In this document: positions 35,859 to 41,892 of the stretch, piece by piece
How the letters are laid out: the number at the start of each line of letters is the position of its first letter
Numbering within the stretch: position 1 is the first letter of the stretch
Assembly: GCF_026870155.1 (NCBI RefSeq)
Contig: NZ_CP113975.1
Span: 1,612,001-1,676,000, forward strand
Direction: 5' to 3'
Origin: Flavobacterium marginilacus
Lineage (GTDB): Bacteria; Bacteroidota; Bacteroidia; Flavobacteriales; Flavobacteriaceae
Length of the DNA stretch: 64,000 nt
Notes under the pieces: generated by a model
Told to the model about the DNA's origin: nothing
What the model saw: the letters and a program-made list of their open reading frames with translations, nothing else
Database searches by the model: none
Program-made: the position numbers and the translations under genes

Positions 35859-36329
35859 TTATCTGGTTTCCTGAGCCATTATTTTTAATTCATTTTCAAG
35901 TCTGTCAAAGTTCTCTTCGTTTTTATCGACCACAAAAGGCTTTAATTTATTGCATTCTTCTGCAGAATTAAAAAGCATTTTAAAAACAATTTTTGTTTTT
36001 TCGCTAGATACTTCTTCAAACGCTGCCAATATTTGGAACAGTGGTTTGGAATGACGCTTCCATGCTATTAATGAAGGTACTTCAATTTTAATAAATTCAC
36101 ATTCATTAGGGTAGTTTCCCTTGTCAGGGCCATGCATGATGAAACTCCATTTTCCGCCTACACGGAAATCAAATTCATTAAAAGCATTTGTAAACCCAGC
36201 TGGTCCCCACCATTTTTTTAAATGCTCAGGTTCTGTTCAGGCACGAAAAACAAGTTCTCTCGATGTATTTACAATTCTGGAACTGACTATTTCACTGTCT
36301 GGAGTTGTTGTTAGGATTTCTGTTGTCAT
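35859..36329 (-). pseudogene. AHSA1/START-like (SRPBCC) gene broken by one in-frame stop
   Basis: Reading the minus strand from ATG 36329 gives a 156-codon AHSA1-type (SRPBCC) protein with a single TGA at codon 31 (36239-36237). It falls after L-V-F-R-A and before T-E-P-E-H-L-K-K-W-W-G-P. In homologs this codon is usually tryptophan or another aromatic, so a TGG to TGA change fits. The rest is intact (GGKWSFIMHGPDKGNYPNECEF and the C-terminal helix LENELKIMAQE). An ATG at codon 65 could restart a 92-residue fragment. AHSA1-like proteins bind hydrophobic ligands, and some act with Hsp90. The IS982-type element begins 83 bp upstream and may have separated the gene from its promoter. Confidence 0.75.
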
Positions 36330-36412: not shown

Positions 36413-37426
36413 AACCTGAACTCGATTAATAATTTTGGTTGAAAATTTTGTAGAAAAAGGTAAAATTTAGTATATTTAAATTTCTGACAATTAAATATTT
36501 AACTAAACTCTACCTTATGATTTGTTTTGATAAAATTACAGATATTTTTTCTATTGTTGATGAATTTTGCAAAGATTTTGATAAAACCACACAGTCTTTT
36601 CTGCTAGGAAAACCTTCCAAACGTCCTTCGATTATGTCAAAATCAGAAGTAATTACAATTTATTTACTTTTTCATTTGAGTGGTTTTCGCTGTTTCAAGC
36701 ATTATTACATTTTTTATGTCCAAAAGCATATGCAAAATGAATTTCCTAATACAGTTTCTTATAATCGCTTTTTAGAACTAATGCAAAGTGTTCTTTTGCC
36801 AATGACAATTTTTGCCAAAACCTGTTGCTTAGGCAATTGCACAGGCATTTCGTTTGTAGACTCAACACCAATTAGAGTTTGTAAAAACAAACGAATCAGT
36901 AGAAACAAAGTTTTTAAAGGTATTGCCACTACAGGGAAATCTACAATGGGCTGGTTTCATGGGTTTAAACTCCACATCATCATTAATGACAAAGGAGAAT
37001 TGTTAAGTTTTGCTGTAACTCAAGCCAACGTAGATGATAGAGAGCCACTGAAAAATGAGGGCTTTTTGAATGCTATTTTCGGAAAACTATTTGGTGATAA
37101 AGGATATATAAGCGAGAAACTCTCTCAATTATTATTTGTTGATGGAATCCAATTAATTACAAGTATTCGAAATAATATGAAAAATAGTTTGATGGAAATG
37201 AGTGATAAAATTTTACTCCGTAAACGTTCAATAATAGAAACGGTTAACGATGAACTTAAAAATATTTGCCAAGTTGAACATTCTAGACATCGTTCATTTA
37301 CCAACTTTTTGTCAAATCTTATCGCTGGAATAATTGCTTATAATTTTCTGCCTAAAAAACCTTCTTTGAAATACGAAACGATTAAAACTAACCAATTGGC
37401 TGTATTTTATTAATCGAGTTCAGGTT
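36413..37426 (+). mobile_element. Complete IS982-type insertion sequence
   Basis: 1014 bp with 20-bp perfect terminal inverted repeats at 36413-36432 and 37407-37426 (AACCTGAACTCGATTAATAA and its complement). One intact transposase gene lies inside, its stop within the right repeat. GAT flanks both outer edges and could be a 3-bp target duplication, but that is too short to be sure. It separates the AHSA1 pseudogene from dnaK. Confidence 0.88.
36517..37413 (+). CDS. IS982-family transposase
   Basis: 298 residues, one continuous frame. The N-terminus has the IS982 form (ITDIFSIVDEFCKDF, then SEVITIYLLFHLSGFRCFKHYY). The DDE residues are visible as the first Asp in ISFVDSTPIRVC, the second in LFGDKGYIS and the Glu in KRSIIETVNDELKNIC. 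GIATTGKSTMGWFHGFKLHII is the typical strand block between the first two. No disruption is seen, so the element may be mobile and could supply transposase for the MITE-like element at 30808-31002. Confidence 0.93.
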   Translation: MICFDKITDIFSIVDEFCKDFDKTTQSFLLGKPSKRPSIMSKSEVITIYLLFHLSGFRCFKHYYIFYVQKHMQNEFPNTVSYNRFLELMQSVLLPMTIFAKTCCLGNCTGISFVDSTPIRVCKNKRISRNKVFKGIATTGKSTMGWFHGFKLHIIINDKGELLSFAVTQANVDDREPLKNEGFLNAIFGKLFGDKGYISEKLSQLLFVDGIQLITSIRNNMKNSLMEMSDKILLRKRSIIETVNDELKNICQVEHSRHRSFTNFLSNLIAGIIAYNFLPKKPSLKYETIKTNQLAVFY

Positions 37427-39588: not shown

Positions 39589-39617
39589 AAACCGAGCTAA
39601 AAATGGCTCGGTTTTTT
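39589..39617 (+). terminator. dnaK terminator (left copy of a duplicated hairpin)
   Basis: AAACCGAGC (39589-39597) pairs with GCTCGGTTT (39606-39614) and a T-run follows. A near copy lies at 41201-41230, after the ATPase/nuclease-like cassette. Confidence 0.85.
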
Positions 39618-39651: not shown

Positions 39652-40773
39652 ATGGAAAAGTTAATAGTTAAAAATTTTGGACCAATAAAAGAAGCTGAAA
39701 TAGATTTGACTAAATATGTTGTGTTTATTGGAGATACTTCTACTGGAAAAAGTGTTTTGGCGAAGTTGATTTCTATTTTTAGGGATTTTTCTAATCTATT
39801 AAAAAATAAGTACGAGAAAGCGAATTATGAAAAAGACTTAGATTTAAATAATCAATTAAATAACTATAATATTGATTTTGATATTGATGATTCTTTTTTT
39901 GAATATTCTAATCCTGAATTGTTAGTAGTAATTGAAAAGAAGAAAATATTAAATATTAGAAATGATTTCGAAAAAAATAATTCATCTAATAAAGATTTCT
40001 TTAAAGATTTTCCAGATGAGGAAATAAAAAATGTTTTTGCACAAATTTATAATTTCAGAAGTACAGTTTATTTTCCTCCCGAAAGAATGTTAATTTCTTC
40101 AGTGGAGTCTTCAATTTATGGTTTATTGGCTAACAATGTTGCGCTCCCTATCTGTTTTAAGAATTTTGCAGCAAGGTATCAGTTCGCAAAAAATGAAAAA
40201 CAAAATATGTTATTTGAAGATTTTGGTTTTGGTTATGCTAATGTAAACAATGAAGTTTTAATATATAATCTAACAGGTGAATTTCAATTAAATAAAGCTT
40301 CGAGTGGAATTCAGTCACTATTACCGCTTCTTTTGGTCTTGAAGTATGAATTAAGGTTAGAAGTTTTAAAACCAGAATTAAATTTTTTAGTAGAGGAGCC
40401 AGAGTTAAATTTGTTTCCGATAAAGCAAAAAAAACTAATTGATTATTTGATACAAAATATAAATAATACAAAACATAAATTAATAATTACAACTCATAGC
40501 CCTTATGTTCTTTCAGCGTTAGATACTTTGATGTTAGCAAAAAATACTTTTAATGAGCATAAAGAACTAAAAGATGATATAAGTAAAATAGTTTATGAAG
40601 GAAGATGGATAGATTACAATGATATTTCAGTTTATGAAGTTCGAAATGATGGAAAAGTGTATTCCATCAAAAATGAAGAATTTCGTAGTATTGATACAAA
40701 TGCAATTGACAGGGTTTCGGATATTATTTCGGAAGAGTTTGATAAACTAACAGAGTTACGATATGCACATTAA
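39652..40773 (+). CDS. ABC/OLD-like AAA ATPase of a two-gene cassette
   Basis: 373 residues, cytoplasmic. KLIVKNFGPIKEAEIDL at the N-terminus is the usual first strand of SMC/RecF/OLD-type ATPases. Walker A is GDTSTGKS (27-34), the ABC signature is SSGIQS (217-222), Walker B is FLVEEPELNLFP (245-256) and the switch His is in TTHSPYVLS (His282). There is no long coiled coil and no TOPRIM domain. The linker between Walker A and the signature is rich in Asn/Asp/Lys and very AT-rich. Its last 11 bases overlap the next gene, so the two are translated together. ATPases of this type pair with effector nucleases in defence systems such as Septu, PARIS and Gabija. The defence role here is inference. 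Confidence 0.82.
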   Translation: MEKLIVKNFGPIKEAEIDLTKYVVFIGDTSTGKSVLAKLISIFRDFSNLLKNKYEKANYEKDLDLNNQLNNYNIDFDIDDSFFEYSNPELLVVIEKKKILNIRNDFEKNNSSNKDFFKDFPDEEIKNVFAQIYNFRSTVYFPPERMLISSVESSIYGLLANNVALPICFKNFAARYQFAKNEKQNMLFEDFGFGYANVNNEVLIYNLTGEFQLNKASSGIQSLLPLLLVLKYELRLEVLKPELNFLVEEPELNLFPIKQKKLIDYLIQNINNTKHKLIITTHSPYVLSALDTLMLAKNTFNEHKELKDDISKIVYEGRWIDYNDISVYEVRNDGKVYSIKNEEFRSIDTNAIDRVSDIISEEFDKLTELRYAH

Positions 40774-41215
40774 TTTTGATGAGTTGATTGCAGCACTTCA
40801 AGATTGTTGTTCAAGAAGTAAAATAGCATCTGAGAATGGAATGAAATTCGAGATTGATTCACGTGAAGTTTTTACGCGAATTAAGATTGATAATTGTTTA
40901 ATCGCTTCGCAACAAGTTCAGAAGTGTGACTTTGGATTTGTAAGGCATTCAAATGATGAGTTTTACTTTGTTGAATTAAAAGGTAAAAATATTGAAACTG
41001 CGGTTGATCAAATTATTAGTACTATTAAAATTTTTGATTCTGATTTGATTAAAATTCCACAAGGGAAAAGATTTGGATTTATTGTTAGTTCACGAAATCC
41101 TTTGTCAGATCAGAAAATTCGAAATTTAAAACAAGACTTCGCAAAAAAATATGGTCATTTTTTAGTTATAAAAAATAAATATTGTCCATATGTTCCAAAA
41201 AAACTGAGCCAGTAA
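40763..41215 (+). CDS. Small PD-(D/E)XK-like protein, partner of the ATPase
   Basis: 150 residues, unrecognised as a named family. The central part reads like a PD-(D/E)XK nuclease core: Asp56 in KCDFGFV, then Glu71 and Lys73 in YFVELKGK, with Gln83 in AVDQI on the next helix. The ELKG followed by an A-x-x-Q-I helix is common in restriction-type and Holliday-resolvase-type nucleases. The upstream strands (EVFTRIKIDN) and the closing FGFIVSS strand fit the same fold. It starts inside the ATPase gene (overlap 40763-40773). I infer that it is the nuclease effector; a non-catalytic ligand-binding role is the alternative. Confidence 0.65.
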   Translation: MHINFDELIAALQDCCSRSKIASENGMKFEIDSREVFTRIKIDNCLIASQQVQKCDFGFVRHSNDEFYFVELKGKNIETAVDQIISTIKIFDSDLIKIPQGKRFGFIVSSRNPLSDQKIRNLKQDFAKKYGHFLVIKNKYCPYVPKKLSQ

Positions 41216-41230
41216 TTGCTCGGTTTTTTT
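41201..41230 (+). terminator. Terminator closing the cassette (right copy of the duplicated hairpin)
   Basis: AAACTGAGC (41201-41209) pairs with GCTCGGTTT (41218-41226) using one G-U pair, then a T-run. The hairpin overlaps the stop codon of the nuclease-like gene. It also faces the minus-strand gene ending at 41251. Confidence 0.8.
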
Positions 41231-41250: not shown

Positions 41251-41892
41251 TTAATCCTCTTTCATTATGACAATTTCTCCCAGCATCATTAAAGTTGGTT
41301 TTATTGTGATAGTAATTTCAGGATTATTTTTAATCTTAAATTCTACAGTATTATAACCAATATAAGAGAATATTAAAACATCTCCTTTTTTTGCACTTAT
41401 TGAAAATTTTCCATCGAAGTCAGTTTGTGTTATAATTTTGGTTCCTTTAACCATAACATTTGCTCCTGGTATTGGATTTTTATTTTCGTCATAAACAATT
41501 CCATGATACATTGATTTTTCTTTAGCTTCAATGACTGTAGTGGAATCATCCAATTGTTTTTTGTCTGTTTGTTCTGTTTTAATAGATTCTTGTGCCTTTG
41601 CGGTTTGGCTTCCTAATCCTAAGAAAGCAATTATTGACGCGGTTGCCAACATCCAAATTGAACTTTTTTCTTTTGGAATGAAGATAGTGTGATTAAGTTG
41701 ACTGCTTGTAAATCGGCCGCATATTTTCGAATTTTGATTATAATAGTTCAATATTTCCCTGTCGGAAGCAGTAGTAAAGTCAATAACATCCTTTTGGCAG
41801 GAAGCACAAAATTTTCCTTTTTGTGAAGATGTCATTTCGTTCCAATTTTCTTTACAGGGTTTTGGAATGGAAATATTAATTTTATTAGCCAT
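41251..41892 (-). CDS. Membrane protein with CarboxypepD_reg-like (CNA-B-type) domain
   Basis: 213 residues, minus strand. The cytosolic N-terminus (about 1-70) has a Cys-containing motif (KPCKENWNEMTSSQKGKFCASCQKDVIDF) common in Flavobacterium proteins. One membrane segment follows at about 78-98 (IWMLATASIIAFLGLGSQTAKAQ). A carboxypeptidase-regulatory-like beta-sandwich occupies about 130-200 (MYHGIVYDENKNPIPGANVMVKG, TDFDGKFSI, IFSYIGYNTVEF). This domain also begins SusC proteins. Here it is freestanding on an inner-membrane anchor with no known function. It converges on the cassette terminator. Confidence 0.75.
   Translation of the reverse strand: MANKINISIPKPCKENWNEMTSSQKGKFCASCQKDVIDFTTASDREILNYYNQNSKICGRFTSSQLNHTIFIPKEKSSIWMLATASIIAFLGLGSQTAKAQESIKTEQTDKKQLDDSTTVIEAKEKSMYHGIVYDENKNPIPGANVMVKGTKIITQTDFDGKFSISAKKGDVLIFSYIGYNTVEFKIKNNPEITITIKPTLMMLGEIVIMKED

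Follow-up and report, generated by a model that had tools for sequence, protein, structure and literature searches.

An ATPase and small nuclease gene pair behind dnaK in Flavobacterium marginilacus as a candidate anti-phage module

Directly 3' of dnaK in Flavobacterium marginilacus, within a 64,000-nucleotide stretch of contig NZ_CP113975.1 (hereafter the window), two overlapping plus-strand genes encode an ATP-binding cassette (ABC) ATPase of the OLD type and a small PD-(D/E)XK-type protein. Our analysis suggests that they form a chromosomal anti-phage abortive-infection module in which the small protein would be the effector, corresponding to the PADLOC candidate PDC-M29 and resembling the WonAB system of Vibrio cholerae; we put the probability of this at roughly 0.7, and the likelihoods given for it and for the alternatives weighed below are not mutually exclusive. 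The pair belongs to a kind of ATPase plus nuclease system that is already recognised, though little studied, and does not found a new one. What is new is its anatomy and evolution, with one site, flanking hairpins and frozen ATPase ends around a variable insert, together with the unusual home of the pair.

The ATPase and its small partner

The ATPase gene (39652..40773, 373 residues) overlaps the gene for the small protein (40763..41215, 150 residues) by 11 bp, exactly as an earlier sequence-only reading had placed them, with corA on the far side of the pair. The same reading called the stretch very AT-rich, and its guanine-plus-cytosine content is 26.9% against 35.4% for the whole window, a value equally low in 1 of 313 sliding windows of the same length. 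Fifty-two loci of the family were compared, made up of the window, 21 loci from genome contigs and 30 fetched stretches. The ATPase gene adjoins the small gene in 50 of them, usually with an overlap of 4 or 11 bp, and 48 of these paired loci satisfy the distance rule of the script used; the other two are L019, whose contig ends within the nuclease, and L193, where the called nuclease start lies further upstream. Two loci have no ATPase: L013, whose contig begins at the nuclease, and L181, which holds a gene for a DUF3782 protein. For L183-L187 it is the PADLOC model, and not our own nuclease profile, that picks up the small gene. The locus is also present, with proteins 99% identical, in Flavobacterium sp. 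HJJ, a same-species assembly (L009). Among the relatives, the ATPase is split into two open reading frames (ORFs) in L184 and L188, copies that look degraded. The DUF3782 protein (L181:6665-7258), which has no ATPase partner, matches the nuclease profile with an expectation value (E) of 2e-7, hinting at a distant kinship of the two families.

The small protein, the proposed effector, is assigned to the PD-(D/E)XK type from its PADLOC match, a structure model and conservation. Its predicted active site spans 40928..41011 on the plus strand and comprises D56 (40928-40930), E71 (40973-40975), K73 (40979-40981) and Q83 (41009-41011). The alignment of the family (A2) holds 72 sequences, eight of them distant rows from Bacteroidota, Nitrospirota or Fibrobacter, and D43, C55, D56, F67, Y68, E71, K73, Q83 and P113 are invariant throughout. 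The motif order noticed earlier, D56 followed by E71-x-K73 and Q83 as in a PD-(D/E)XK core, is therefore not a product of chance, since these four residues are invariant in 72 sequences and the ATPase motifs in 43. The structure model agrees: it has a PD-(D/E)XK-like topology, and not a fold lacking the restriction-endonuclease core, and is predicted with high confidence (predicted local distance difference test 94.9; predicted template modelling score 0.91). D56 is placed just before the strand of residues 57-61, E71 and K73 at the end of strand 66-73, and Q83 within helix 77-95. Sequence databases give little for this protein, with no Pfam or PHROGs match at E<=1, two sub-threshold NCBIfam matches only, to acetyl-CoA carboxylase (best E 0.0075), and nothing meaningful among PDB sequences (best E 0.043). 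One homologue, P0038, carries a precomputed Pfam label, PF27768, that was not reproduced with the Pfam copy used; the family may have a Pfam entry by now.

The ATPase, the proposed sensor and activator, matches the Pfam families PF13175 (the AAA_15/OLD-type core) and PF13304, and Toprim is absent from its three Pfam matches at E<=1. Its predicted fold resembles Rad50 and SMC heads; comparison with PDB sequences yielded nothing meaningful (best E 0.2). All four ATPase motifs named in the sequence-only reading are invariant in an alignment (A3) of 43 sequences, nine of them not belonging to the close Flavobacterium-type set: Walker A (GDTSTGKS, residues 27-34, 39730..39753, plus strand) with G27, G32, K33 and S34, the signature S217-S218-G219, Walker B with E248-E249-P250-E251, and the switch histidine H282. 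The 34 close rows, consisting of the window protein, 31 database proteins, L017 and L018, reveal a markedly uneven pattern of change along the chain. Residues 1-45 have a mean pairwise identity of 0.95, residues 46-135 of 0.29, residues 213-295 of 0.66 and residues 319-373 of 0.88. The variable stretch (39787..40056, plus strand) is a hypervariable insert proposed to be the sensor region, and its length, taken over residues 46-139, ranges from 73 to 119 residues; the conserved C-terminal part (40606..40770, plus strand) is, on the WonA analogy, the proposed surface that holds the nuclease.

The same pattern is seen in nonsynonymous (pN) and synonymous (pS) divergence among six loci (L010, L011, L012, L014, L015, L016). 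Mean pN is 0.017 for the ATPase N-terminus, 0.436 for the insert, 0.034 for the C-terminus, 0.080 for the nuclease and 0.059 for corA, while mean pS lies between 0.38 and 0.66 throughout the segments. Of these segments the insert changes fastest, which fits a phage-facing sensor, and the C-terminal part and the nuclease change slowly, which fits an interface and an effector, respectively.

Relation to known defence systems

In PADLOC's profile library, whose matches are given here by E value and not by the score cut-offs, coverage cut-offs and system rule that PADLOC itself applies, both genes fit the models of one candidate, and they lie adjacent to each other. The ATPase matches PDC-M29A at E 1.3e-44, the best of 75 families, and residues 40-139 of the small protein match positions 55-160 of the 164-position PDC-M29B profile at E 1.3e-9, the best of three families. 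The second match is moderate; another lineage, found partly among type I restriction genes, matches PDC-M29B far better, with E down to 2.5e-62, and the clade behind dnaK forms a branch separate from it. PADLOC's PDC candidates are credited to 'guilt-by-embedding' work (Payne et al. 2024 preprint, as cited in PMC12988326), and the name PDC-M29 was not found in the literature searched. It had been proposed from the sequence that the ATPase senses infection and the small protein cuts nucleic acid. Of this, a sensor with a PD-(D/E)XK-like effector stands as a defence candidate, through the two profile matches, the invariant residues and the model topology, and it is from here that we infer a defence function for the pair. 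The view that the partner is unlike that of any known pairing did not survive, as the PDC-M29 candidate exists and both WonAB and PD-T4-4 share the architecture.

WonAB, from the WASA-1 prophage of Vibrio cholerae, is described in PMC12137116 as an OLD-type ABC ATPase and a PD-(D/E)xK protein, both of them required, along with the catalytic K71 and ATPase residues. WonB is predicted to sit on dimerised C-terminal extensions of WonA (section 7 of that paper). Activation stops translation with no degradation of genomic DNA and while phage DNA still replicates, rRNA or tRNA being the target that the authors propose; WonB requires WonA for its toxicity, so that WonA does more than neutralise it (PMC12137116). 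The authors further place the system within a larger family of ABC-ATPase sensors with nuclease effectors (section 7), and it is grouped with PD-T4-4 and with the 'OLD-ABC ATPase + Novel REase' class of Krishnan et al. 2020, as cited (PMC12137116; PMC12409358). The window pair shares with WonAB an OLD-type ABC ATPase that lacks Toprim, a small PD-(D/E)XK partner, a two-gene operon and a similarly placed catalytic lysine (K71 in WonB, K73 in the window nuclease), a likeness judged by architecture and not by sequence kinship. In contrast to WonAB, which is prophage-borne and was shown to abort infection by translation arrest, the window pair is chromosomal, sits at a fixed site behind dnaK and is known from sequence.

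Other systems are related through the ATPase and differ in the partner. PD-T4-4 of E. coli is carried on an element resembling an integrative and conjugative element (ICE) (PMC9519451), and a PD(D/E)XK nuclease domain is listed for it in a table of PMC10952713. The window ATPase matches PD-T4-4_A at E 5.6e-22, with the best stretch at 179-367, more weakly than it matches PDC-M29A, but the window nuclease has no PD-T4-4_B match at E<=1; the PD-T4-4_B model PDLC04034 has no match in this genome, and the same search was positive in no control genome. PARIS, Gabija and OLD share the AAA_15/OLD-type ATPase core (PF13175; AriA E 2.9e-22, GajA E 4.2e-13). However, in contrast to Gabija, in which a GajA with a Toprim domain is paired with a UvrD-like GajB, the window ATPase has no Toprim match and its 150-residue partner no helicase match, and unlike PARIS the small protein has no match to AriB (Toprim/DUF4435) or Toprim at E<=1. 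The Septu partner is an HNH nuclease (PMC10952713, table), as in the PtuA/PtuB pair and the PtuAB of retrons Ec78 and Ec83, whereas the window protein has an ExK core and no Pfam match; PtuB models are absent from its PADLOC and NCBIfam matches, and no Pfam family matches it at E<=1.

The mechanism that we propose borrows from these relatives. The ATPase, by its predicted fold, would dimerise through the Walker A, signature and Walker B motifs as the heads of Rad50, SMC and PtuA do, and the fast-changing insert at residues 46-135, to go by its variability, may read a signal caused by the phage. By analogy with WonAB, the C-terminal part (319-373) would hold the nuclease and keep it off until ATP turnover changes its shape. 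The activated nuclease would then cut nucleic acid with the conserved D56, E71 and K73, tRNA or rRNA being the likeliest target, and translation and phage production would stop. The nucleic acid cut would be that of the host, as WonAB again suggests, and the infection would be aborted. The genes encoding this switch would be kept at a fixed dnaK-corA site with their own terminator, and lost and/or exchanged there.

The dnaK site and other genomic homes

The pair is accessory and patchily distributed. The nuclease has a match at E<=1e-3 in 8 of 199 Flavobacterium genomes, five of them strong; in phylum samples the nuclease profile matches 20 of 395 genomes and the PADLOC model 22 of 296, the genome of the window itself being counted in each of these samples. 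Among the ten further Flavobacterium loci that show the upstream side, the pair lies directly behind dnaK in seven (L009, L011, L012, L014, L017, L018, L019), while among 80 fetched dnaK loci it does so in one (L118); the carriers G078 and the window genome are outside the 80. The 12 ATPases of the dnaK site form one clade (support 100/100), and three ATPases behind a lysS-type gene form another. Since the dnaK clade keeps its site just behind dnaK across Flavobacterium species, the pair appears to have resided at this one locus for a long time, being repeatedly lost and/or exchanged there. The acquired module after dnaK that had been envisaged is half right, as a recent random insertion fits less well. 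A plasmid search gave no match to the pair. The viral search gave one match (37.5% identity, E 2e-12) in an unverified 4.7-kb virome record, and none of 102 pattern stretches in viral contigs was confirmed. Immediately to the right of the pair lies a CarboxypepD_reg-like gene (41251-41892, minus strand) whose copy number in the dnaK-corA gap of relatives is zero, one or two, making that gap variable beyond the pair itself.

Two terminator-like hairpins frame the pair. The left one, ACCGAG-N10-CTCGGTTTTTT (39591..39617, plus strand), lies after dnaK and before the ATPase gene and is the only exact match of that pattern in the 5.3-Mb genome; its look-alike on the right (41203..41230, plus strand) overlaps the nuclease stop codon. 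The string CTCGGTTTTTT is found two times in the window, where 0.06 occurrences would be expected. Each of the eight empty sites compared runs from dnaK through one ACCGAG...CTCGGTTTTTTT hairpin into the right-hand sequence, with a single CTCGGTTTTTT within 400 bp of dnaK; some of these sites also hold unrelated hairpins. Homology between the window and the empty site of a near relative (L084) starts at the right hairpin and runs for 220 bp at 87%, and L011 and L015 behave alike against the empty sites L095, L097, L104 and L108. A hairpin on either side of the pair is also seen at the remaining filled loci for which both flanks are available, except in L017, where the right one is missing; L010 and L014 carry identical copies, and those of L018 differ. 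We infer that the pair was inserted at the dnaK terminator or that this terminator was duplicated, either of which would let the pair be lost or exchanged cleanly. A search of the genome with the right hairpin and its downstream bases, three mismatches allowed, matched only itself and missed the left copy, because an insertion or deletion separates the two there; the likeness lies in the hairpin itself.

The 3' end of dnaK also appears to be a site at which ICE-like elements integrate, pushing the pair outward. A remnant of that end precedes the pair in L010, L015 and L016, and also in L190. In the L010 genome about 126 kb, including a relaxase gene (PF03432), separates the intact dnaK from the pair, and the L015 genome has the same arrangement at about 126 kb, provided that contig 1 is the record holding L015. 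These remnants, the separation and the relaxase gene fit integrative elements entering the dnaK end. Just upstream of the pair are Gabija (GajA E 8.6e-215, GajB E 4.4e-257) and an Mrr-type nuclease in L010, genes for a methyltransferase, a phospholipase D (PLD) family protein and an HNH protein in L015, and a tyrosine integrase with a Mu/IS21-type transposase gene in L016. In nine of the 80 fetched dnaK loci (L089, L093, L098, L099, L101, L107, L111, L120, L124) an ORF of 416-419 residues with a near-identical C-terminus lies less than 800 bp from dnaK; the one Pfam-scanned, that of L089, is a tyrosine integrase (E 4.3e-24). A single shared attachment core for these insertions was rejected, the dnaK-side and cassette-side copies sharing just eight exact consecutive bases, and comparing the two did not define a crossover site.

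Within the dnaK clade, piecewise exchange between loci is suggested by disagreement among segments over the closest relative and by a conflict of the ATPase data with the dnaK tree. L015's nuclease lies near those of L011 and L012 (pS 0.25-0.26) while corA differs by 0.70-0.73, and the L012 insert is nearer to that of L016 (pN 0.16) than to that of L011 (0.31). Over eight rows, the ATPase data reject the dnaK topology (approximately unbiased test, p-AU 0.003), but no rejection is obtained in the reverse direction (0.13), a discordance compatible with horizontal transfer or with loss. A recent swap of the whole cassette between F. anhuiense (L011) and F. tagetis (L012), first suggested by a dnaK pS of 0.08, did not hold up, as the cassette pS of 0.28-0.63 is of the same order as that of corA (0.40) and pta (0.48); what stands out between these two is the nonsynonymous divergence of the ATPase middle.

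Outside the dnaK clade there are 38 loci, and the flanks of 14, picked by eye as recognisable, were scanned with Pfam. In four of the 38 the pair splits a core operon with both flanks confirmed: between a SufB-type gene and an ABC ATPase in the SufC position (L023), between LpxC and a hexapeptide protein in the LpxA position (L027), between MurE-type and MurD-type ligases (L029), and between SdhA and an SdhB-type protein (L166). Beyond the Pfam families, we take these to be the suf, lpx, mur and sdh operons. One flank was confirmed for GreA (L026), DnaE (L164), an FtsW-type protein about 1.4 kb away (L028), and a class II tRNA synthetase that we interpret as LysS (L178), with L179 and L189 likewise by eye. 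HsdM, HsdS or HsdR neighbours were confirmed in L173, L175, L176, L185 and L191. As controls, 15 OLD/Toprim loci were inspected by eye and none split a core operon, nor was a core-operon gene among the ten flanking proteins scanned with Pfam from seven of them. Type I restriction genes stand beside four of these 15 control loci (by eye), so this association is not special to the family of the pair. The core-operon pattern is a lead and not a result, and as a statistical claim it was set aside: the classes were set after looking, many loci share ancestry, and no significance is claimed. A literature search on defence genes in housekeeping operons returned nothing on point among the matches listed. 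The pairs behind the lysS-type gene (L178, L179, L189) constitute a second Flavobacterium lineage and follow a terminator-like hairpin; a tRNA-like string before the L179 ATPase was not called by ARAGORN.

Competing explanations and wider meaning

Two results qualify the reading as a defence pair. A structure search with the small-protein model gave weak matches only, and the neighbourhood comparison was mixed: the clade keeps its dnaK site and the family is not always found with housekeeping genes, yet some distant relatives lie inside housekeeping operons. Those relatives (SufB|SufC-type, SdhA|SdhB, LpxC|LpxA-type and MurE|MurD-type, besides positions behind dnaK and lysS-type genes), a Rad50-like ATPase head and the near absence of copies on phages or plasmids would suit a housekeeping DNA- or RNA-repair pair, like Rad50-Mre11 or SbcCD, that serves the host rather than defence. 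We consider this very improbable: 191 of the 199 Flavobacterium genomes have no match at E<=1e-3, a hypervariable middle lies between near-frozen ends, other lineages have type I restriction neighbours, and defence-candidate models match both genes. A stronger contender, though still unlikely, is restriction directed at DNA, in which the ATPase would recognise or load onto phage DNA, the nuclease would degrade it and the cell would survive. PD-(D/E)XK folds include many DNA endonucleases, rows of the structure search name NucS, EcoT38I, PspGI, FokI and HamA, the ATPase is like Rad50 and SMC heads, and some relatives lie among type I restriction genes. Against this, no modification or DNA-specificity gene accompanies the pair between dnaK and corA in the window, and WonAB, the closest studied system, is reported to spare genomic DNA, let phage DNA replicate and stop translation (PMC12137116).

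The pair could also be read as a toxin-antitoxin system in which the nuclease is a toxin checked by the ATPase and kept mainly through addiction. Two overlapping genes with the small nuclease last, their near-constant pairing and the naming of PF13304 for a putative AbiEii toxin point that way, but the frequent absence at the dnaK site, where one of 80 fetched loci holds the pair, suggests easy loss, and a plain antitoxin would not need a hypervariable insert. In WonAB, moreover, WonA is required for WonB toxicity and not just for its neutralisation (PMC12137116), and we regard addiction as an improbable account.

A wider reading, which we put forward tentatively as possible and on balance doubtful, extends the abortive-infection module to the way in which it is housed. 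This immune locus would be a self-contained insert of two genes, housed not in defence islands but within or directly behind essential genes (dnaK, lysS; the suf, sdh, lpx and mur operons), and in Flavobacterium it would be bounded by duplicated host-gene terminators for clean loss or swap. Its specificity would evolve allelically: the ATPase ends and the interface with the nuclease would stay frozen while diversifying selection acts on the sensor insert, and species would exchange pieces. If true, the tie to an essential operon would keep an abortive-infection switch expressed and hard to lose with the essential gene, and core operons would be a possibly overlooked home of immune genes. The dnaK site offers a natural allele series in an environmental genus, with similar nucleases, near-identical ATPase ends and very different inserts, a ready-made route to learning what an ATPase of this emerging class senses. 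The pair also lends independent support to the PADLOC candidate and links it to the WonAB/PD-T4-4 class.

Upstream of dnaK the window holds an insertion sequence with a DDE_Tnp_1_3 transposase and, next to it, an AHSA1-family gene (35859-36137, minus strand, and 36517-37413, plus strand). That gene encodes 92 residues in the window against 156 in HJJ (L009), where there is no insertion, and the insertion sequence appears to have cut off its start.
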